The translations under genes were made by a program, and so were the position numbers. A DNA stretch of 64,000 bases from Limibacter armeniacum (GTDB lineage: Bacteria; Bacteroidota; Bacteroidia; Cytophagales; Flammeovirgaceae): the NCBI RefSeq assembly GCF_036880985.1, contig NZ_JBAJNO010000003.1:62001-126000 (forward strand), in the 5' to 3' direction. Shown piece by piece: positions 4,716 through 50,933 of this stretch (position 1 is its first letter; each line of letters starts with the position of its first letter). The notes beneath the pieces were generated by a model. That model was given only the letters and a program-made list of their open reading frames with translations, was not told where the DNA came from and searched no databases.

Positions 4716-5720
4716 CTAGTTAACAGTGATACTATTGATTACTTTACTGGATTGCTTTTTTCTGACTACAGCAATTATTTCTGCAATAACCGAAATCGCT
4801 ATTTCCTGAGGCGTGACCGAACCAATATTTAGACCTGCCGGCGAACTGATGGACTCCAGTTTGTCTAAATCCAATTCAGCATTATACTGGAGAAGTTCAT
4901 CAAACAGCATATGCTTACGCCTACTTGACCCAATAATTCCAAAATAGCAGTAGGCTTGATCGAGTATAGCCAATGCATAATGAAAATCCCTTGAATAACT
5001 ATGTGTCATTAGAATAACTGCTGTCTGCTCATCTAAACCCAAGTTGTCAATTCCATCAGGTTCCAACGCTATTACCTTATCAGCTCCCGGAAAATCACTT
5101 TTTTGTCGAGCATCTTTCAGAGAACTTACAACCGTTACTTCCATCCCACTGCTACTGCCTATCATCGCCATTTGTACAGCATCATGCTCAGTACCAATGA
5201 TTACCAAGCGCAAAGCTGGTTGCATGGTTTGGCTAAAAACAGATACGTTATGACTCGGGCTAAAATCTTTTCTAAACGTAAATTCTTTTCCCTTAAGCTT
5301 GATGATCGTTCCATAATCCGGCGACTGTCCTATTTCCTTGGAATAGAAAGCGTGCATCTCAAAGGATAACCTGGATTCCAAAACCTCAGCCCAACTGGCC
5401 AATAGTTCGTCCGATAAGCTAAAAGGCTCGATAAGTATATACAAGACTCCTTCACATCCTAGTCTGTATCTGCCATCGTAGGTCATGATACGAGGTAAGC
5501 CATCTTCCAACACCTGCTGTGCCTGTCTTATTACCTCTTTCTCCACACATCCTCCACTGACAGCTCCAACCGTATCACCCTTGTCGGTTATTAACATCCT
5601 TACCCCTGGCTTACGATAGGAAGAGCCATCTAAATCAACCACAGATGCCAAGACACACTTTATTGAAGATGCCTGGCATTGTACTGCGTGGTTCAATATT
5701 TTCTTAAATTCGAATAGCAT
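4716..5720 (-). CDS. XdhC/CoxI-family maturation factor
   Basis: 334 residues with two domains. The N-terminal XdhC_CoxI part has LASVVDLDGSSYRKPGVRML, then GAVSGGCVEKEV, where the conserved cysteine sits, and YDGRYRLGCEGV. The C-terminal Rossmann part begins around residue 175 (LRLVIIGTEHDAVQMA) and ends with YFGIIGSSRRK and the typical PAGLNIGSVTPQEIAISVIAEI-type tail. XdhC proteins bind molybdenum cofactor, assist sulfuration and insert it into hydroxylases. The gene starts 6 nt after the large subunit stop and precedes the MocA-like gene, so it is almost certainly dedicated to this enzyme. Confidence 0.92.
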   Translation of the reverse strand: MLFEFKKILNHAVQCQASSIKCVLASVVDLDGSSYRKPGVRMLITDKGDTVGAVSGGCVEKEVIRQAQQVLEDGLPRIMTYDGRYRLGCEGVLYILIEPFSLSDELLASWAEVLESRLSFEMHAFYSKEIGQSPDYGTIIKLKGKEFTFRKDFSPSHNVSVFSQTMQPALRLVIIGTEHDAVQMAMIGSSSGMEVTVVSSLKDARQKSDFPGADKVIALEPDGIDNLGLDEQTAVILMTHSYSRDFHYALAILDQAYCYFGIIGSSRRKHMLFDELLQYNAELDLDKLESISSPAGLNIGSVTPQEIAISVIAEIIAVVRKKQSSKVINSITVN

Positions 5721-5726
5721 AGTTGT

Positions 5727-7829
5727 TTATCCAAGCTCCTCAGCAAAAGGCATTTTGCGAATCCGCTTACCTGTTGCTGCATAAATAGCATTACTTATAG
5801 CGGCTGCCACTGGTGGTAATGCTGGTTCTCCCAATCCTGTTGGCGCTTCATTTGATGGAACAAACTTCACTTCGATATCCAATGGTGCGTCCTTTATCCG
5901 AAGGAATTTATAGGAGTCAAAATTGGTCTCTGCTACAGCGCCATCCACAAAAGTAATCTTAGGAAACATGGCGTGACAAATACCATCAATGATAGCACCC
6001 TGCACCTGATTTTCAGCTCCACTAAGGTTAATGACTGTACCACAGTTTACCGCACAAAAAACCTTGGTAATCCTAGGCTTTCCATTCTCCAGTTTAAGCT
6101 CAAGAACCTGAGCCGCATACGAACCAAATGAATACCATGTAGCAAAACCTCTGAACACTCCTTCAGGCGTAGTGCCCCAGTCTGACATTTCTGCCACCAA
6201 TTCAACCACACTTTTGTATTTATCAGGGTCAAACTGCAGCTTTCCAATGGGTTGCTTCTTGGCTTTTTCAAACAATTCAAGTCGAAATGCAACAGGGTCT
6301 TTTTTCAGTTCCACACACACTTCATCCATAAAACTTTCAGCAGGAAAGGCAAGTGTGTTGGCACCAGGAGCACGCCACCAGCCTGTAGGGGTATTGCTCT
6401 CCAGGCCTTGACCCTCTGAACGGTAATTTTCTAAAGCACCAGCTACATAACTATCCCCTCTAACTTCCCTTCCAATGGCAATTCCAGACTGGTGCCAGCT
6501 CCATAGTTTATCTTCCGACAAGCCAGCCCTATACCGATACATAGTAGCCGGACGGTAAAAGTCATTTTGCTGATCATCTTCCCTTGTCCACTGCACCTGT
6601 ACAGGTTTTTGAACAGCAGCAGAAATCAATGCAGCTTCCACCGCATTGTCATTCATCAGTTTTCTGCCAAATCCGCCTCCCTGTCTTGGAAGTGTAACTG
6701 AAATGTTTTCCGGAGCGATTCCCAGCAATTCAGCGACATCGCTTCTTACCTTTGCCGGCACCTGCGTTGGACCAAAAAGCTCCGCACTATCTTTCCTGAC
6801 ATCAGCAAAGTAGTTTAGCGGCTCCATTTGTCCGTGGGAAATGGTTGGCATCTCATAATAAACATCCAGCACTTTTTGGGCTGTTTTATTAGCTGCATCT
6901 ATATCCCCATCATTTCTGGACTTAGCGTCTGCACCTTTTGCCAGCAATTCCTTAAAAGAATTGAAGTGATCTGAAGAACTTTCCAGTTTCTCTGACGTCT
7001 CCCATTCAATGATCAAGGCATCTCGTCCCTTTTTGGCTATCCAAGTAGAGGTGGCCAGTACCGCTACCGAATTTTTAAGCTTTACGATATCTTTGACACC
7101 ATTGATCTTACGTGCTTCGGTATCATCTACATTTTTCAATGTTTTTCCGTAAGCTGGGGGACGAGCCACCATTGCGAATAGCATTCCCTCCCTGCGTGTA
7201 TCTATTCCATAAAGGGGCTGACCAGTAGTAATTTTATGGGCCTCAACATCTTTAACACGTGTGCCCAGAAACTTGAAATCCTCAGGATTTTTTAGTTTTG
7301 GATCAGTGGGAACCTCCAGCTTAGATGCCTTTGTCGCCAGTTCTCCATAACTTAGTTTTTTTCCACTTGATTGGTGTATAACCATTCCCTCATCTGCCAA
7401 ACACTCGTCAACAGGTACATTCCAGGTTTGGGCTGCGGCTGCTATCAACATCTCACGGGCTGCGGCTCCAACGATACGTAATTCTGCAAACTTCCCTCTA
7501 ATGGCACCACTGCCGCCTGCTACCTGTCTTCCAAATTTCTCATCCAGTGGGGCTAATGCTACCTTAACTTTTTCCCAATTCACACACAGTTCTTCAGCCA
7601 CGATCAAAGGAAGTGAAGTGGTTACACCTTGCCCAATTTCAGGGTTGGGCGCCATCAGCACGATCGTACCATCAGGACTTATCTTGATATAGGCATTTGG
7701 AGTAAATTCATCCTCTTCAGCTAATTTGCTTATGGATTTATAGCCCAGCAAGGAGAAGCTTAATAGCAATCCTCCACCTGCAATAGTAGAAGCTTTGAGA
7801 AAATGTCTTCTGGAAACTGTTGACTTCAT
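5727..7829 (-). CDS. Molybdopterin-binding large subunit of xanthine dehydrogenase-family hydroxylase (IorB-like)
   Basis: 700 residues. A twin-arginine signal (SRRHFLKAS, then a hydrophobic stretch) shows export of the folded, cofactor-loaded enzyme by Tat. The molybdenum-cofactor domains carry PNPEIGQGVTTSLP, GSGAIRGKF, PRQGGGFGRK, WWRAPGAN and GLGEPALPP; the glutamate in GEPA matches the catalytic base of the family. Length and the absence of a FAD-domain gene in the operon place it with isoquinoline-1-oxidoreductase or aldehyde-oxidase types, which pair with a small 2Fe-2S subunit and pass electrons to cytochrome c. The start is 2 nt from the small subunit stop. Substrate unknown: an N-heterocycle or aldehyde is plausible from the family. 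Confidence 0.93.
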   Translation of the reverse strand: MKSTVSRRHFLKASTIAGGGLLLSFSLLGYKSISKLAEEDEFTPNAYIKISPDGTIVLMAPNPEIGQGVTTSLPLIVAEELCVNWEKVKVALAPLDEKFGRQVAGGSGAIRGKFAELRIVGAAAREMLIAAAAQTWNVPVDECLADEGMVIHQSSGKKLSYGELATKASKLEVPTDPKLKNPEDFKFLGTRVKDVEAHKITTGQPLYGIDTRREGMLFAMVARPPAYGKTLKNVDDTEARKINGVKDIVKLKNSVAVLATSTWIAKKGRDALIIEWETSEKLESSSDHFNSFKELLAKGADAKSRNDGDIDAANKTAQKVLDVYYEMPTISHGQMEPLNYFADVRKDSAELFGPTQVPAKVRSDVAELLGIAPENISVTLPRQGGGFGRKLMNDNAVEAALISAAVQKPVQVQWTREDDQQNDFYRPATMYRYRAGLSEDKLWSWHQSGIAIGREVRGDSYVAGALENYRSEGQGLESNTPTGWWRAPGANTLAFPAESFMDEVCVELKKDPVAFRLELFEKAKKQPIGKLQFDPDKYKSVVELVAEMSDWGTTPEGVFRGFATWYSFGSYAAQVLELKLENGKPRITKVFCAVNCGTVINLSGAENQVQGAIIDGICHAMFPKITFVDGAVAETNFDSYKFLRIKDAPLDIEVKFVPSNEAPTGLGEPALPPVAAAISNAIYAATGKRIRKMPFAEELG

Positions 7830-44927: not shown

Positions 44928-45111
44928 GAAAAAGAGAACGTTTATATCATAAGCTAGACCTGACTGATAGGTTTGGCTTTTTTTGTGACCAACCAAGACT
45001 TAAAGATCTAAAGGATTGGAAGTATAAAAGGTAACACATACTGCTTGCCTCAATTTCTGTTTCCCCACTTTACCTTGCTAAACAAGCGTTTTAAAACGAC
45101 TTAAACGTTTA

Positions 45112-45175
45112 TAAATACTATATTAAGAAGGATCAAACTCAAACAAACGATAGCTAGACATCAAGTGACATAAAA
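45112..45175 (+). repeat. Copy 5 of recurrent promoter-like element
   Basis: Contains AATACTATATTAAGAAGGAT, then AACGATAGCTAGACATCAAG. It matches the block TACTATATTAAGAAG of the copy at 10783 and the ACGATAGCT of the copy at 1504. It ends 13 nt before the next gene. Confidence 0.5.
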
Positions 45176-45188
45176 ATGAATTACAATA

Positions 45189-45614
45189 ATGAAAATTGAA
45201 CCTTTTGGAAATATTAAACTCAATGTAAAGGACAATGAATGGTTTGGAGATGTAGAAAATATTTGTCCACACAACAAAGTCGAACTAAGTATTTGTCTTC
45301 AAAGCACAAATCAAGACCTGAGTCAAAAGATTGATTTGGTCAAAGAATTAGCATCAGACTATGAAAAGATTGTTGCTTCTCTTTACGATCTAGCTTACCA
45401 AAAGTACAAGAATACAGAATTTGAAGTGACCCGAGAAGAAATAGAAAAAATGTACTTCCTATCTGCAGTAAATTTGAAAGAAGACAATGAAACATGGTGG
45501 TTGACAATGGAGCCAAACTTTAATGTCACTCCTATTTATAATCACTTCTTGCGATTTACAATGCACCGACGAAAAATCATTTGGGCTAACTTTGAAATTA
45601 ATATAACATCCTAA
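45189..45614 (+). CDS. Hypothetical protein, possibly DUF2262-like
   Basis: 141 residues, soluble, no signal. An N-terminal beta-rich part (FGNIKLNVKDNEWFGDVEN) is followed by a helical middle (KIDLVKELASDYEKIVASLY, then DLAYQKYKN) and a C-terminal part (WWLTMEPNFNVTPIYN, HRRKIIWANFEINI). The pattern of an opening NEWF tryptophan, central helix and closing tryptophan resembles DUF2262-type proteins, but I would not insist. Preceded by copy 5 of the recurrent element. Stand-alone accessory gene. Confidence 0.6.
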   Translation: MKIEPFGNIKLNVKDNEWFGDVENICPHNKVELSICLQSTNQDLSQKIDLVKELASDYEKIVASLYDLAYQKYKNTEFEVTREEIEKMYFLSAVNLKEDNETWWLTMEPNFNVTPIYNHFLRFTMHRRKIIWANFEINITS

Positions 45615-45693
45615 CATAAGTTAAACTTCGTATTTGCCCTGTAGATAGCAGTTGTTCTTCATAGGTAAACTGTAAATAGAAAAAGAATCTAAA

Positions 45694-46151
45694 ATGCAGA
45701 AGAAACTAAGAGTTGGAATAGCACTATTAAGTTTGACAGTATTTGTCATTTTGTTGACTCAGGATGCTATTGTCTAAATGATTTTGATGGTCAAAAAACA
45801 CATTCATCATTCTCATTACTTATTATGGGCAGTACGGTAGTCCTAGGAGGAGGACTACTTGAGTGGTTAGTTTGGCTTGCTAATCCAAGCTACATTTTAT
45901 CAATGATATTGTTTATCAAGGGCAAAAGAAATGGACTTAAACTGAGTATCACTTCAACTATAATCGCACTCTCATTTTTAAATTGGAATAAAATACTTGC
46001 TGCTGAAAATGGAAGAAAGGCTACAATCCATTCTCTAGAACTTGGATATTGGTTATGGACATCGAGTATGGCTATCTTAAGTATTGAAATGAGATTCTAT
46101 TATTTTAAAAGAAAAAATCACGAAAGCATAACAAAAACGAGACTACATTAA
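45694..46151 (+). pseudogene. Frameshifted small membrane-protein gene
   Basis: Begins MQKKLRVGIALLSLTVFVIL in one frame, runs into a TAA after LTQDAIV, and continues in a second frame from about 45771 (CLNDFDGQKTHSSFSLLIMG, then STVVLGGGLLEWLVWLANPS) to a normal stop. One base lost or gained near GCTATTGTC explains the break. The second part includes IHSLELGYWLWTSSMAIL and two more membrane helices. Only the 3' part could be translated from its internal ATG (45825). A frameshifted gene or a sequencing error. Confidence 0.68.
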
Positions 46152-46184
46152 AACATGGTATAACATACTATTATTAGCAATAAA

Positions 46185-46712
46185 ATGAAGACTTTGATTG
46201 AAACTGAAAGGTTATTATTGAGAGAGATTACTTTTGATGATAAAGAGGAATTGCTTCAGTTGCACTCTGATCCAGAGGTTCAAAAATGGACCGGGGAGCC
46301 TGTTATTGAATCAATGAAGGAAATAGAAAAGGCAATTGATATAAGACAAAATAACTATAGACAGTATGGGTTTGGAAGATTGGCTGCAATCCAAAAAGAT
46401 ACAAGCGAATTCATTGGTTGGGTAGGACTGACTTATTTGCAAGAATTTGACAAAGTGGACCTTGGGTACAGACTTAAAAAGAAATACTGGGGAATGGGCT
46501 TCGCAACTGAAGCCTCCAAAGCCATTATTGATTATGGCTTTAACATACTTAATCTTGATTTAATAATAGCTATAGCTTTACCTGAAAACAAGGCTTCAAT
46601 CAGAGTCATGGAGAAGGTAGGAATGATATATGATAAGCAAGCTCCTTATGATGAAATGATATTAGATGCCATTTGGTATAAATTAGATAGGACCACTTAT
46701 AACAAAAGATAA
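46185..46712 (+). CDS. GNAT N-acetyltransferase, RimJ/RimL type
   Basis: 175 residues of the GNAT fold. It opens TERLLLREITFDDKEELLQL, has the acceptor-side segment FIGWVGLTYLQEF and the acetyl-CoA pyrophosphate-binding region YRLKKKYWGMGFATEASKAI, and ends with ENKASIRVMEKVGM, all typical of the RimJ/RimL branch, which acetylate protein N-termini or small amines. AT-rich, single gene, 52 nt before the macrodomain gene (49 nt to its first ATG), same strand; shared function with it is only a possibility. Confidence 0.93.
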   Translation: MKTLIETERLLLREITFDDKEELLQLHSDPEVQKWTGEPVIESMKEIEKAIDIRQNNYRQYGFGRLAAIQKDTSEFIGWVGLTYLQEFDKVDLGYRLKKKYWGMGFATEASKAIIDYGFNILNLDLIIAIALPENKASIRVMEKVGMIYDKQAPYDEMILDAIWYKLDRTTYNKR

Positions 46713-46764
46713 CACCTTATAAAAATACATTTAATGCTAATCGTAGGCTGCAATTACAAATATG

Positions 46765-47277
46765 ATGGAAATAAGATTAATAAAAGGTGACATCACAAAG
46801 ATTGAAGTTGATGCAATTGTTAACGCAGCTAATACTTCCCTTTTAGGAGGAGGTGGAGTTGATGGAGCAATCCATAGAGTTGGAGGACCTCAAATTCTAG
46901 AAGAATGTAGAAAAATCAGAGCTAGACAAGGAGGATGTAAAGTAGGTGAAGCCGTAATTACTACTGCTGGTAATTTAAATGCTAAGTTTGTAATTCATAC
47001 TGTCGGCCCTAGGTGGAATGAAGGAAATTCCAATGAAGCAGAAAAATTAAAAAACTGTTATATCAACTCCTTGAAATTAGCTAGTGAAAATGGAATAAAA
47101 TCAATTGCTTTTCCAAATATTAGTACTGGAATTTATGGTTATCCATTAGAAGAAGCTGCTGATATTGCAATTAAAACTGTTACAGAAGCAGATTTTCCTG
47201 AAATAAAATCAATAACTTTTGTCTGTTTTGGAGATGATAACTACAGGCTTTATGATAAAAAAATAAAGCAATTGTAA
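46765..47277 (+). CDS. Macrodomain protein, O-acetyl-ADP-ribose deacetylase (YmdB-like)
   Basis: 170 residues from the second of two adjacent ATG codons; the first (46762) adds one Met. A complete macrodomain: [39 protein letters not shown] with the catalytic Asn/Asp/Gly loop, [20 protein letters not shown], and the second ligand loop [18 protein letters not shown]. This subgroup (MacroD/YmdB type) removes ADP-ribose from proteins or deacetylates O-acetyl-ADP-ribose. A conserved gene of unnamed family follows 192 nt later; together they may form an ADP-ribose-handling unit. Confidence 0.96.
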
Positions 47278-47469
47278 CCAACATCATATATGAAATAAGG
47301 AATCCGTTTTGTTTCTTGACGGATATGATGTGCAATGGTTTCAATTGATTTTTCCCTTAAAGTTATACAATGTTTAATCAGTGAGTTTATTCAGTTATCT
47401 ATTCGCTTGATACTTTGTCCCCTCTCCACACAGAGATTACACTGAACATTATCGATAAAAAATTAGCCC

Positions 47470-48462
47470 ATGTGGTTTGAAGACTTAGTAGGATTTGAAG
47501 AGGTATCCCCAGAGGATGTAAGAAGTAAACTTTACTTAGAAGGTCAAAATATTATTTCAAGAGTTAATGGTAAATCCTTTCAATATGGGACTTTAGAAAC
47601 TCCAACTTTAAAAGACCTAAAAGAACAATCTTACATGGATGTTTACACAGGTAGTTTAAGTGTCAATGAGATAGTAGGTGATGTACAAGAAATACATTGT
47701 CTAAAGGAAAATAATAACGCTTTGTTTCAAGCTGCTTCTCAATTCAATGTATTGGAAATGATTACTCCGCATATAGTCCCAGAAAGAGGAGTAGGAATTT
47801 ATGAAAAGGATCGCACTCAAGGTCCTGCCTGTGCAATTGCTTGTGGAGCAGGAACAATTTACAGAAATTATTTTGTACCACTAAACAATCAAATTGGTCA
47901 ATCATCCAACAATCAAATTGATTGTTTAGAATTGATTGGAGACAAATTAAACAATAATGAGCTAAGTCTGTGGCGAATGCAGAATGGATACGCTTTAATT
48001 CATCAAGAAGGCATTTTAAAGATTAATTCAATTATTAATAATTTTCATGAAGAACAAAGGGAACTTCTAAAAGAAAAACTTAAGATAGGAATTCAGTGGA
48101 ATACAGAGGTAACCATTAGTAAATCAAAACAAATAGTTACACAAGCATATTGTTCAGCATTACCCGTTGCTTATTCAAATATTGAATCATTCTATTGGGA
48201 AAGCTTTGCCAGATTGATTCTTGAAGCTACTTATGAGGCAACTTTATATGCAGGATTGATTAACCTAGATAGAAACTATAGCAATAAAGTATATTTGACT
48301 CTTGTTGGGGGAGGTGCTTTTGGAAATGAAATTGACTGGATAACTGAATCTTTATTCATAGCTCTTAAAAAGTTTAGAAATACTCCTTTAGACGTATATG
48401 TTGTAAGCTATGGAAGCTCAAACATACATATAGCTGATTTGATAAAGAAAATTAATCGATAA
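47470..48462 (+). CDS. Conserved protein of an unnamed family, possibly macrodomain-related
   Basis: 330 residues, cytoplasmic. The conserved-looking blocks are WFEDLVGFEEVSPEDVRSKL, GDVQEIHCLKENNNALFQAA, SQFNVLEMITPHIVPERGVG, a glycine/cysteine loop GPACAIACGAGTIYRNYFVP, QIGQSSNNQIDCLELIG, and, near the C-terminus, VYLTLVGGGAFGNEIDWI with VYVVSYGSS. From memory, proteins with these blocks occur in scattered bacteria and eukaryotes and have no assigned function. The VGGGAFGN loop and the beta-strand order resemble macrodomain-like ADP-ribose pockets, which fits its position behind a true macrodomain. The catalytic role is not known. Confidence 0.7.
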   Translation: MWFEDLVGFEEVSPEDVRSKLYLEGQNIISRVNGKSFQYGTLETPTLKDLKEQSYMDVYTGSLSVNEIVGDVQEIHCLKENNNALFQAASQFNVLEMITPHIVPERGVGIYEKDRTQGPACAIACGAGTIYRNYFVPLNNQIGQSSNNQIDCLELIGDKLNNNELSLWRMQNGYALIHQEGILKINSIINNFHEEQRELLKEKLKIGIQWNTEVTISKSKQIVTQAYCSALPVAYSNIESFYWESFARLILEATYEATLYAGLINLDRNYSNKVYLTLVGGGAFGNEIDWITESLFIALKKFRNTPLDVYVVSYGSSNIHIADLIKKINR

Positions 48463-48527
48463 CAGCCAAACTTCTTTCGTATTAAAAGTGAGGTTTCGTT
48501 TATGCAATTTGTGTCACATAAAACTTT

Positions 48528-48641
48528 ATGAATAAATTCCTTTTTTATATGTTGGTTCTTGCTGTCTCTGGAACTGCTATTTTTTATCTCTTGGGCTACT
48601 TCGGTCAAACAAACTGGATTCCCCGTCACAAACTTAAATAA
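48528..48641 (+). CDS. Very small membrane protein (37 residues)
   Basis: An ATG-started frame, MNKFLFYMLVLAVSGTAIFY, then LLGYFGQTNWIPRHKLK and stop. One membrane helix with a basic tail. It may be a real micro-protein or the 5' end of a longer, truncated gene. AT-rich, in the debris zone before the IS4-like element. No family recognised. Confidence 0.35.
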   Translation: MNKFLFYMLVLAVSGTAIFYLLGYFGQTNWIPRHKLK

Positions 48642-48693
48642 TGGCTCTTCAAAATGTTATAGCCATACTGTTATAGCGCTCTAAAGAAAAATA

Positions 48694-48840
48694 ATGGAAG
48701 TACGAGAATTTGAAGTGAATGGAACGAAATTCGTATTCAATATATTAAAGCATAACACAGAACCATGCTCTGGATGTGGGATACCTGCTTGTGGAAAAGA
48801 AGATATAACTGATATGGAGAATATTGCATATGAAAGCTAA
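48694..48840 (+). CDS. Small cysteine-motif protein (48 residues)
   Basis: An ATG-started frame MEVREFEVNGTKFVFNILKH, then EPCSGCGIPACGKEDI and a short acidic end. The C-x-x-C-G-x-P-x-C cluster could bind a metal, or be the remains of a larger protein with such a motif. The density of cysteines in a small, otherwise AT-rich frame is unusual for chance. No family recognised; may be a fragment. Confidence 0.35.
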   Translation: MEVREFEVNGTKFVFNILKHNTEPCSGCGIPACGKEDITDMENIAYES

Positions 48841-48993
48841 ATCTCACAAATTTCAACTTAAAATAACTAGAGGATAAAAACGAAGTCTACACCTTATATC
48901 CCAGCAGAAACTATTCACAACACGTATGCAAACCGTTGTACTTAATTTATATGAGAACACTTTTTTTGACATTAATTACTTATTACATTTTTT

Positions 48994-50273
48994 CACTCTA
49001 CGGTACAGTTTTAAAAACAAAGTGAATTAAGAGTATAATACTGGATTACAGGATATTTGCAGGTCATTTCAGTGGCTGATTGGGGCAATAAAAAGCAAAG
49101 GTCTAACTTTGCCGTTCGCCAAAACCACAAGCCAGACCTTTACCTTTATGTTGACTGCAAATATACTTGAAATCCTCTGCGGTTTCCAAATCGTCAAAGG
49201 CAAACCAAGCAAACAGGTACTAGCCAAGCTAATTACGGCCTTGGTGGAAGATGAAAATGTGCAATTTCATCAGATAGCCAAAAACTTGCCATCCAAGGCG
49301 CAAAAAGCTTCTCGGACCAAGCAAGTCAAACGCTTTATGTCAGGAGCTGTGTTCAATTATCAGGCCCTGATGGCATGGTTGTTTTCCTGCCTGCCATCCG
49401 GAAAGATCACCCTCTGCATTGACCGAACCAACTGGCAGTCCAGAAAGCAGGCAGTGAATATTCTGGCAGTGACGGCCTACAGTCATGGCGTGGGTTTTCC
49501 ACTGGCTTTTCGGCTACTGGACAAAAAAGGAAACAGCCACCAGCAGGAGCGTATTGATTTGCTGAAGGAAGTACTTCAGATTGTGCCTCCCGAACGGATC
49601 GGGAAAGTGATTGCAGACCGGGAGTTTATCGGCAAAAAGTGGCTTCGGTTTATGACCATGCAAGGGATTGTCTTCTGCGTTCGGATTCCATCACACCACA
49701 AAATCAACATCGATGGTGTGGAGAAAACAGGAGAGGTATGGAGCAAAGAAGGCTTTCGCTGTACTGACCGAAGAGCAACGATCTATGGAATGGACCTGAC
49801 TCTTTCCATGCAGATGACCAAGGATAAAAACGGGCGAAAGGACTACCTGATCGTAGTCTCAAACCTGATGAAAAGAGGCTTGCTGTCAAGCTATAGAAAA
49901 CGGTGGAGCATCGAGGTGTTCTTCCAGTCGCTCAAAGGGCGGGGATTCAACCTGGAAGCCACTCACCTGACCAAATTGGATCGGCTTGAAAGACTTTTTG
50001 CTGTGGTGTGTATGGCCTTTGCTGTTTGTCACTTATTTGGCGTGGCTTTCCATGAAAAAGTACAAAACATAAAAGTAAAGAACCACGGTTACAGGGAGAA
50101 CAGCTATTTCAGAAAGGGAAAAGATCTGTTGCAGGAACATTTCTGTACGAGACCCCGCCAAGTAGGTAATGAGATCAAAGGACTTTGGAAGAAGTTTTGG
50201 AGGGGAATTAGTCCCAAAACACCATCTGAAAAACTGGTTTTTAGTTGGTTATAAAAAAGTGTACCGTAGAGTG
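48994..50273 (+). mobile_element. IS4-like insertion sequence with 9-bp target duplication
   Basis: 1280 bp bounded by inverted repeats: CACTCTACGGTACAGTTTT at 48994-49012 and its complement at 50255-50273, with 18 of 19 positions paired. The 9-bp direct repeat ACATTTTTT flanks it at 48985-48993 and 50274-50282, a duplication size used by IS4/IS10-type elements. It carries one intact transposase and so may be active. It sits inside an exported-protein gene, splitting it. Confidence 0.9.
49148..50254 (+). CDS. IS4-family transposase
   Basis: 368 residues from the ATG giving MLTANILEILCGFQIVKGKP; an in-frame TTG 13 codons earlier is possible. The DDE triad is probably D in LCIDRTNWQ, D in KVIADREFIG and E in RWSIEVFFQSLKGRG; the Y-(2)-R-(3)-E-(6)-K signature of IS4 is present in SYRKRWSIEVFFQSLKG. 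The stop lies at the right inverted repeat. Uninterrupted, so likely functional. Confidence 0.93.
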   Translation: MLTANILEILCGFQIVKGKPSKQVLAKLITALVEDENVQFHQIAKNLPSKAQKASRTKQVKRFMSGAVFNYQALMAWLFSCLPSGKITLCIDRTNWQSRKQAVNILAVTAYSHGVGFPLAFRLLDKKGNSHQQERIDLLKEVLQIVPPERIGKVIADREFIGKKWLRFMTMQGIVFCVRIPSHHKINIDGVEKTGEVWSKEGFRCTDRRATIYGMDLTLSMQMTKDKNGRKDYLIVVSNLMKRGLLSSYRKRWSIEVFFQSLKGRGFNLEATHLTKLDRLERLFAVVCMAFAVCHLFGVAFHEKVQNIKVKNHGYRENSYFRKGKDLLQEHFCTRPRQVGNEIKGLWKKFWRGISPKTPSEKLVFSWL

Positions 50274-50933
50274 ACATTTTTTTTATTGGTTAGCAACTTA
50301 TTATCAGCTCAAAATGTAACTGTTACGCAAGATACTACCTCCTTTAATGGAGAAGTAACCTCTTCAGATTGGATTGATCATGGTTTAACGATAGGTATCA
50401 ATTTTTCACATTATCTGTATGGAGAAGTTGATTATTATAAAAGCTACATATGGGAAGCTGGAGGGTTCCCAACTTTATCTACTACAATGAATTACGGATT
50501 AGAGTTTTCTTATCTTGACAATCTTATACTAGCCCCTAAAATTCAGGGTAGAGTCCATGCCTATTTTTTCAATGCAAGCTTAGCCGCTCTTTGTTATAGT
50601 AATTTGAAAAATGACTTTGCTATAAAATTACGACCTGAGTTAGGGTTGGGACTATGGAATATTGACATCAATTATGGTTATAATATTGGAGTCTATAAAG
50701 AAAACTTTAATAAAGCTAATAAACATGTTATAGCACTTAGGTATTATATAGGTCTTCATAGAAAACACCTTAACCAATATGATAGAAACGGCAATAAAAA
50801 GCCTAAAAACTAAATACAGCAATAACATAATGACAAACAATAGGCTATTATATAAGATTGATAATCAATTCCATTAAAGTAAATTCATACATTTTATTGC
50901 AAACAGTATAACATAAGGTAACATTAACAAATC

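Follow-up and report, generated by a model that had tools for sequence, protein, structure and literature searches.

A predicted PARG-like macrodomain family with a patchy, mobile distribution and occasional links to NAD salvage

Background

Bacterial or microbial PARGs (DUF2263, PF10021, TIGR02452) are the described proteins closest to the one reported here. Their defining catalytic motif is GGGx6-8QEE, and the available portion of a review (PMC7050489) describes a conserved Asn before this motif that touches the distal ribose at its 3''-OH and is an Asp in microbial PARGs; according to the available text of another paper (PMC11833690), bacterial PARGs often undergo horizontal transfer and protect, as immunity proteins, against an RNA-modifying (RNA ADP-ribosylating) toxin. 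We analyzed a 64,000-nucleotide stretch of the Limibacter armeniacum genome (the window, G000:C3:62001-126000, from an 8.04-Mb genome in 9 contigs), in which the gene at positions 47470-48462 encodes a 330-residue protein that is probably a divergent PARG-like macrodomain (ADP-ribosyl)hydrolase, possibly one that recycles ADP-ribose towards nicotinamide adenine dinucleotide (NAD+).

Excerpts of three further papers supply other points of reference. The arginine-specific DUF4804/MavL class is a hydrolase with a loop of its own and without the catalytic motifs of PARG or MacroD (PMC10951314); C12ORF4/DUF2362 is a Macro-like family that was recognized by prediction and whose catalysis is uncertain (PMC6500376); and NADAR beside NAD-salvage genes is described in phages, in an account that includes neighborhoods with NADAR and NadV (PMC9503650).

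Results

Predicted fold

The AlphaFold2 model of the window protein, built from 13 sequences, has a predicted local distance difference test score (pLDDT) of 87.8 and a predicted template modeling score (pTM) of 0.90, and its sole segment of at least three residues under pLDDT 50 (residues 93-103) starts inside a conserved loop. A Foldseek search of the Protein Data Bank (PDB) returned 27 matches at E <= 0.001, headed by the D. radiodurans and T. curvata PARGs and followed by Af1521, YmdB and viral macrodomains; the modeling and structural search proposed in the first-pass annotation of this DNA thus yielded a predicted macrodomain fold, with bacterial PARG as its nearest neighbor. In structural alignments made with VIA-align the closest folds were again bacterial PARG structures, at Z 17.1 (5zdc_F; 229 residues, root mean square deviation [RMSD] 3.7 A) and Z 17.0 (3sih; 237 residues, covering model residues 1-325), and PARGs as a group scored Z 16.0-17.1, against Z 12.8-14.0 for non-PARG rows (154-196 residues). 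Identity in these structural alignments is only 7-13%. We judged structural classes among the top 50 rows, where the absence of a class (for example, DUF4804) does not exclude it.

A second model, of a protein from a viral contig of giant-virus look, judged by eye (L015; 33% identity with the protein of the window), is weaker (pLDDT 65.4, pTM 0.72) and places bacterial PARGs at Z 14.7 to 13.2 and macrodomains at 11.5 and below. Bacterial PARGs fill the first nine structural rows for both models, which have most of their alignment in common. Because both models give bacterial PARGs first, we regard a macrodomain core fold with a PARG-like overall arrangement as well supported by prediction. The core fold is also that of the MacroD/YmdB type (PF01661; YmdB 5cb3, Z 14.0, 166 residues, RMSD 2.8 A), from which the family protein differs by an N-terminal extension of about 60 residues and by insertions of about 100 residues within the range aligned (model residues 63-327, against 166 aligned).

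Conserved residues and motifs

Motifs were counted in 34 family sequences (the window copy included), a set that excludes fragments and remnants (L019, L054 with region L080, L055, L056 and L062-L066), the marginal L044 and L045, the broken L005 and L012 (the open part of L005 was used only in two early alignments), and the repeats L014, L016, L067 and L086 together with same-place loci. Only six of the 338 matching plasmid records described below enter it. Invariance was read from a 33-row alignment, which is the same set minus L070, a near-copy of L069, and which spans bacteria, plasmids, phage contigs and a giant-virus-like contig.

This alignment has 48 invariant positions. They include Q87, A89, S90, Q91, F92, N93, L95, E96 and M97 in the first block; P104, G107, Y111, D114, T116, G118 and P119 after it; then T129, R132, N133 and Y134; N172, G173 and Y174; Q225, C228, S229, A230 and P232; and T277, G280-G282, F284, G285 and N286, among others. 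Both blocks picked out as conserved-looking in the first-pass annotation rank among the most conserved: D114-x-T116-x-G118-P119-x2-A122...T129-x2-R132-N133-Y134 and G280-G281-G282-x-F284-G285-N286. Two motifs are kept in all 34 sequences: QxASQFNxLEM, which in the model comes after the strand at residues 85-88 and enters the low-confidence segment, and GGG[AV]FGN, the GGG-x-F-G-N of which matches the GCG-x-F-x-N loop of PARG.

The PARG catalytic motif GGGx6-8QEE is found in none of the 34 sequences, nor does QEE occur anywhere in them, and because this defining motif is absent we do not file the family as PARG. The MacroD loop-1 motif Nx6GG[VLI] is likewise absent from all 34, and the MacroD-type loop-2 motif G[VIA][YF]G is present in every one. 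DUF4804/MavL offers a precedent for macrodomains that form a class through a distinct catalytic loop; its published motifs ([VIL]xGxGxGx[FWY] and WDxx[SA]xPGN[DE][FY][FWY]) each occur in 0 of 34 family members, and DUF4804 is not among their Pfam matches. The family resembles C12ORF4/DUF2362 in being Macro-like and recognized by prediction, and differs in that no DUF2362 match appears in the Pfam results for 33 family members.

Sequence relationship to PARG

At the level of sequence the link of the family to PARG is weak. With hhalign, the family against DUF2263 PARG gave P 0.0053, with GGGAFGN on GCGVFQN, compared with 0.11 for a reversed PARG control; the undisputed pair of PARG and macro gave P 0.0032 with equally shallow alignments, the family against macro gave P 0.021 with smaller alignments, and two unrelated alignments gave 0.27 and 0.29. 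The profile match to PARG is not significant, and hhalign alone would not prove homology. The PARG alignment held 9 of the 10 PARG loci found (the truncated L094 was omitted and L096 is partial); it stayed small because a search for PARG in the phylum of L008 (299 genomes) gave only two. The resemblance of VGGGAFGN to an ADP-ribose pocket, suggested in the first-pass annotation, is nonetheless supported by this comparison, in which it aligns, weakly, on the PARG loop WGCGVFQN, and by the predicted fold.

An alignment made by eye sets PARG LNFASAKNPGGG over family LFQAASQFNLLEM. The motif [NQ]xASxxN stands before the loop in every sequence compared (all 34 of the family and all 9 PARGs); among neighboring open reading frames (ORFs), 1 of 260 has it. 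The DUF2263 proteins compared carry Asn at the position before the loop, unlike the Asp that the review gives for microbial PARGs, and N93 is a candidate for the role of the Asn that contacts the distal ribose.

Searches with the window protein itself gave no match in NCBIfam, only LAGLIDADG_2 below the cut-off in Pfam (E 0.019; 15.4 bits, cut-off 25), and a best E of 0.12, not significant, against PDB sequences. A 13-row profile run against PDB sequences at E <= 10 returned the Af1521 macrodomain only (E 0.67-0.79). Other identities were set aside, each being confined to few sequences or not significant and none agreeing with the fold of the model: LAGLIDADG_2, being below its cut-off; a PHROG endolysin (1 of 13 members, E 2.7e-4); a PHROG family without function (2 of 13 members, E 0.003); PADLOC CARF9--CARF_HEPN (1 of 13 members, E 5.9e-4); a CRISPR DxTHG PDB entry (E 0.12, and 0.39 with a 33-row profile, not significant); and the sugar transferase WaaZ (3 of 33 members, best E 0.0055).

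NAD-salvage operons

We read 35 neighborhoods of the family gene, about 33 of them independent; in most the gene stands alone among unrelated neighbors. In a Saprospiraceae metagenome-assembled genome (MAG; L006), the order by Pfam is NrtR, phosphoribosyl pyrophosphate (PRPP) synthetase, NADAR, Nuc_deoxyri_tr2, DUF4291, KptA, NAMPT and then the family gene. In a Bacteroidetes MAG (L004) it is NrtR, PRPP synthetase, the family gene, a small ORF without Pfam match, and NAMPT, with adjoining genes overlapping or nearly touching (NrtR and PRPP synthetase were assigned by Pfam, and NAMPT by its 78% identity to that of L006). The two family copies are not sisters in the tree, and operon membership, a minority arrangement, thus occurs in more than one independent lineage. 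By a rough estimate under simple assumptions on operon and genome size, the chance of at least two NAD operons in 33 neighborhoods is 0.002-0.015. The neighborhoods with NADAR and NadV described in PMC9503650 differ from these: the available part of that paper does not name the family, which here lies in a bacterial NrtR-PRPP synthetase-NAMPT operon.

A NAMPT search in 198 genomes of the order to which L006 belongs gave 21 matches in 19 genomes, and we compared 21 NAMPT loci (L006, L004 and 19 retrieved regions, several of which are truncated at a contig end). By tblastn, the 20 loci from that order include KptA in eight, NADAR in three, macro in two (L131 and L134), PARG in three (L133, L139 and L141) and the family in one (L006, the starting point). 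In none of the 21 loci were two of macro, PARG and the family found together, which with only two, three and one loci of 20 is no test of mutual exclusion. The family occupies places held elsewhere by known ADP-ribose erasers, on small numbers: PARG lies between PRPP synthetase and NAMPT in L133, as the family does in L004, and directly after NAMPT in L141, as the family does in L006, and L131 has the order NrtR-PRPP synthetase-NADAR-macro-DUF4291-KptA-phosphatase (by eye)-NAMPT. As a separate observation, the NAMPT loci of this single order of Bacteroidota, most of which have NrtR and many PRPP synthetase, carry varying sets of ADP-ribose and RNA-repair genes (NADAR, macro, PARG, KptA, DUF4291 and a nucleoside deoxyribosyltransferase-like gene), and L131 (G616:C2), L133 (G663:C55), L139 and L141 may represent an NAD recycling cassette.

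Proposed activity and the results that weigh against it

We infer the activity and substrate of the 330-residue protein, and think the hydrolase reading a rather better than even prospect. The protein would bind an ADP-ribose-containing ligand in the usual macrodomain cleft and would hydrolyze a bond at the distal ribose, with N93 perhaps holding that ribose and E96 or D114 possibly serving as the acidic residue that stands in for the glutamate of PARG QEE. In the NrtR-PRPP synthetase-NAMPT operons, gene context suggests that ADP-ribose (or ADP-ribose phosphate) may be freed from nucleic-acid, protein or small-molecule adducts and might then pass by way of ribose 5-phosphate, PRPP and nicotinamide mononucleotide to NAD+.

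Several results count against this proposal. With the larger family set, hhalign of the family against macro gave 0.19, no better than the reversed control at 0.18; it also did not reproduce the loop-1 register, and forced longer alignments came without a sensible one, for which reason the equivalence of N93 and its loop to PARG is kept as putative. The 33-row profile against PDB sequences placed a CRISPR protein first (E 0.39), with Af1521 at E 0.98, and no Macro-clan or PARG Pfam model was reached at E <= 1 among the 33 members. In NCBIfam, TIGR02452, the bacterial PARG family, was reached by one of the 33 members (E 0.011); the unrelated WaaZ was reached by three with a better best score, and we therefore treat the TIGR02452 match as noise and give it no weight. 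The NAD operons make up only two of the approximately 33 independent neighborhoods, and in another genome (G564) NAMPT and the family lie on different contigs. The window genome gave no NAMPT match (one query, without positive control), and the NAD recycling account may accordingly not apply to it.

Distribution of the family

One scan of genome contigs found eight relatives of the 330-residue protein at 47-71% identity, in Bacteroidota, a Chlorobiota MAG and Oceanibacterium, and from these relatives together with the invariant positions we take the gene to be real and conserved. Full-length copies are present in 7 of the 118 genomes searched from the window's order (its own genome counted, two marginal matches excluded), in 8 of 248 genomes of the order of L006 (its own counted, with three further partial matches), and in 5 of 398 genomes of the phylum of L008 (its own counted, with partial matches only in two more). 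A phylum-wide draw with a smaller profile gave 3 of 395 genomes, including the own genome and one remnant with stops. In the tree the window copy stands beside a Flammeovirga copy (L001; support 100/95), and a Nostoc plasmid copy falls among presumed Bacteroidota copies at a weak fork (83/82).

Among 72,556 plasmid records, 338 match the family and 315 cover at least 80% of the query. Klebsiella accounts for 260 and Escherichia for 58, followed by Shigella, Enterobacter, Citrobacter, Nostoc, Caballeronia and others; many of the Klebsiella rows are near-identical and are therefore not independent gains. In the plasmid rows listed, the family gene is annotated as 'hypothetical protein' or not at all. 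Among 5426 complete E. coli genomes, DNA near one plasmid allele occurs in seven (six over most of its length) and DNA near another in six (five over most of its length), all on plasmids. One 34-kb E. coli plasmid (L103; NC_009787.1 16610-29551) is listed in the plasmid search with two family places, and its matched copy is preceded, about 640 bp upstream, by another hypothetical gene of 1005 bp, which comes after a RelE/ParE-type toxin gene.

Seven IMG/VR loci carry the family (L011/L016 and L013/L014 look like repeats), and two further viral scans with divergent members returned only IMG/VR contigs already found. L010 also bears portal and head-protease genes, and L013 SbcCD-like, late-sigma and baseplate genes. 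In L010 the family gene (4738-5736) sits in a phage structural region on the same strand as the portal and protease genes; in L013 (5980-6975) it shares 1 bp with the gene that follows on the same strand (PHROG 'DNA binding protein'). A viral structure library gave, as its first five rows, proteins of Yasminevirus, Bodo saltans virus and Klosneuvirus with 17-31% identity. Two copies are broken: that of a Chryseobacterium contig (L005), in which the reading frame is lost near the C-terminus, and that of an IMG/VR contig (L012), with a stop after 89 residues. The distribution is patchy and mobile, taking in Bacteroidota, Pseudomonadota, a cyanobacterial plasmid, other plasmids, phage contigs and giant viruses. 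Literature searches did not turn up the family; being word-based, they cannot show that it is undescribed.

Discussion

Alternative readings

The distribution raises the possibility of a counter-defense enzyme of mobile elements, aimed at an NAD-derived immune signal or at host ADP-ribosylation, for which the NAD operons would be side branches; we consider this rather unlikely, although it is the alternative that fares best. Conjugative typing was obtained for 288 of the 338 matching plasmid records, and the family gene lies between traX and repA in three plasmid copies (L101, L102 and L025, the first two also with hok) and beside parM/stability genes in two others (L022 and L103). The Caballeronia copy has a putative molybdenum-carrier gene at about 1.2 kb and a Sir2-family gene at 1.8 kb, while a DNA methyltransferase is found 3.8 kb off in the other direction; this methyltransferase and an ATPase match PADLOC models (for the ATPase, a candidate model). 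A precedent is the phage enzyme RyDEP, which, in the available text of its description, degrades 2'/3' cyclic ADP-ribose (2'/3'cADPR) and feeds NAD+ synthesis (PMC13232231). Against this, none of 50,697 phage records matches the family at E <= 1e-5, the Caballeronia Sir2-family gene matches no PADLOC model, and many copies are chromosomal with unrelated or housekeeping neighbors (for example, L069 and L070, between rplQ-like and thymidylate-synthase-like genes labeled by eye). A further locus, L081 (G977:C116), is recorded here in its own right: its family copy overlaps a downstream HD-type (p)ppGpp hydrolase-like gene by 4 bp and is preceded by a large SNF2/helicase-like gene along with further genes of unknown kind (all by eye), in what may be a defense island.

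It is less probable still that the protein is a reader and not an eraser, that is, a non-catalytic macrodomain that senses or sequesters an ADP-ribose derivative such as an NAD-derived immune signal. The absence of the catalytic QEE while a diphosphate-type loop is kept would fit such a role, which would also suit the copies on plasmid records and on viral contigs with head/packaging or T4-like genes, and Thoeris defense systems with a macro domain are known from the available part of one paper (PMC11204291). The invariant positions, however, are in many cases polar and cluster at loop 1, which looks more like an active site than a simple binding cleft. We retain the PARG-like hydrolase as the preferred reading.

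The window locus

Both genes named in the first-pass annotation are present as complete forward-strand ORFs (Table 1), and the first of them is, as proposed there, a YmdB-type macrodomain: its product scores above the NCBIfam cut-off for PRK00431.1-6, O-acetyl-ADP-ribose deacetylase (242.8 bits, cut-off 200), and its loop 1 and loop 2 (STGIYGYP) are both readable in the sequence. A GNAT acetyltransferase gene (46185-46712) lies upstream. No terminator-like site is listed in the gap between the two genes, and promoter-like matches in 45100-49200 are not above chance (15 observed, shuffle mean 18.4). The window genome also has a second Macro gene and, on a different contig, a canonical PARG that carries GGG...QEE; a NADAR gene lies at a distance of about 52 kb. 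Downstream of the 330-residue gene, by 646 bp, is a DDE transposase gene (49109-50254, forward strand; Pfam DDE_Tnp_1, E 3.2e-16), the end of which is overlapped by an ORF at 50169-50813.

Table 1. Positions, in the window, of the two genes, the gap between them and the conserved segments of the 330-residue protein
Feature	Position	Strand	Basis and remarks
YmdB/MacroD-type macrodomain gene	46762..47277	+	171 aa, complete ORF; Pfam Macro E 6e-52
Intergenic gap, macrodomain gene to 330-aa gene	47278..47469	.	192 bp
330-aa gene, predicted PARG-like macrodomain family	47470..48462	+	Complete ORF; AlphaFold2 model and structural matches
Candidate catalytic loop 1, residues 87-97 (QAASQFNVLEM)	47728..47760	+	Would replace PARG NxASxxNPGGG...QEE; putative correspondence to PARG loop 1
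Second invariant block, residues 114-119 (DRTQGP)	47809..47826	+	After flexible loop; D114, T116, G118 and P119 invariant
Residues 129-134 (TIYRNY)	47854..47871	+	T129, R132, N133 and Y134 invariant; in helix 126-135
Predicted diphosphate-binding loop 2, residues 280-286 (GGGAFGN)	48307..48327	+	Conservation; hhalign register with PARG WGCGVFQN

We searched 40 loci for the macrodomain (tblastn with the window macro protein, E <= 1e-5; some loci are cut by contig ends), 39 of which hold a family copy and two of which (L067 and L086) repeat the places of L004 and L008. It was found only in L075, where it lies on the opposite strand at about 3 kb from the family copy, and no macrodomain annotation occurs in 10 plasmid stretches with the family. 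A Macro match anywhere in the genome exists for only five of nine other family-bearing genomes, and the family therefore does not require macro. That the two genes form a dedicated ADP-ribosylation-reversal or NAD-signaling module, as the first-pass annotation had suggested, is accordingly very improbable: they share a strand at close spacing in the window and lie near one another in L075, but macro is in none of the other 39 loci, four of the nine genomes have no Macro match at all, and the 21 NAMPT loci, too few for a test, never hold macro, PARG and the family together. The pair is best read as chance neighbors or a local arrangement and not as a conserved module. The first-pass annotation had let its idea depend on macrodomain similarity in the structure and on co-occurrence of the two genes in other genomes; the predicted structure favors the former and the latter was not borne out. 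Its wider link to ADP-ribosylation or NAD gains from the predicted fold and from the two relatives in NAD-salvage operons, one of which contains additional ADP-ribose enzymes, and loses the two genes as a single module. Under the hydrolase reading that we prefer, the window copy probably works alone as an ADP-ribose-cleaning gene gained by horizontal transfer, and the macro gene adjoins it by chance.

Conclusion

A bolder version of the proposal, which we put forward tentatively and hold to be rather unlikely, is that the family founds a new catalytic class of macrodomains: PARG-shaped, with a QxASQFNxLEM...DxTxGP site in place of GGG...QEE, carried on conjugative plasmids, phages and giant viruses, and cleaving an ADP-ribose adduct, or an immune signal derived from NAD, on which PARG and MacroD act poorly, with return of the ADP-ribose to NAD+ synthesis.

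A family that bears only the label 'hypothetical protein' in the plasmid rows listed is present in phage and giant-virus genomes and on enterobacterial plasmids, the latter in hundreds of records. Should it prove to be an ADP-ribose eraser with an active site of its own, it would add one more class of macrodomains, with a simple set of residues for mutation (N93, E96, D114 and F284), and would offer a defined target for how mobile elements handle NAD-based defense. It would also connect the removal of ADP-ribose with NAD salvage through physical linkage in operons, in which macro, PARG and the family appear to occupy similar places.

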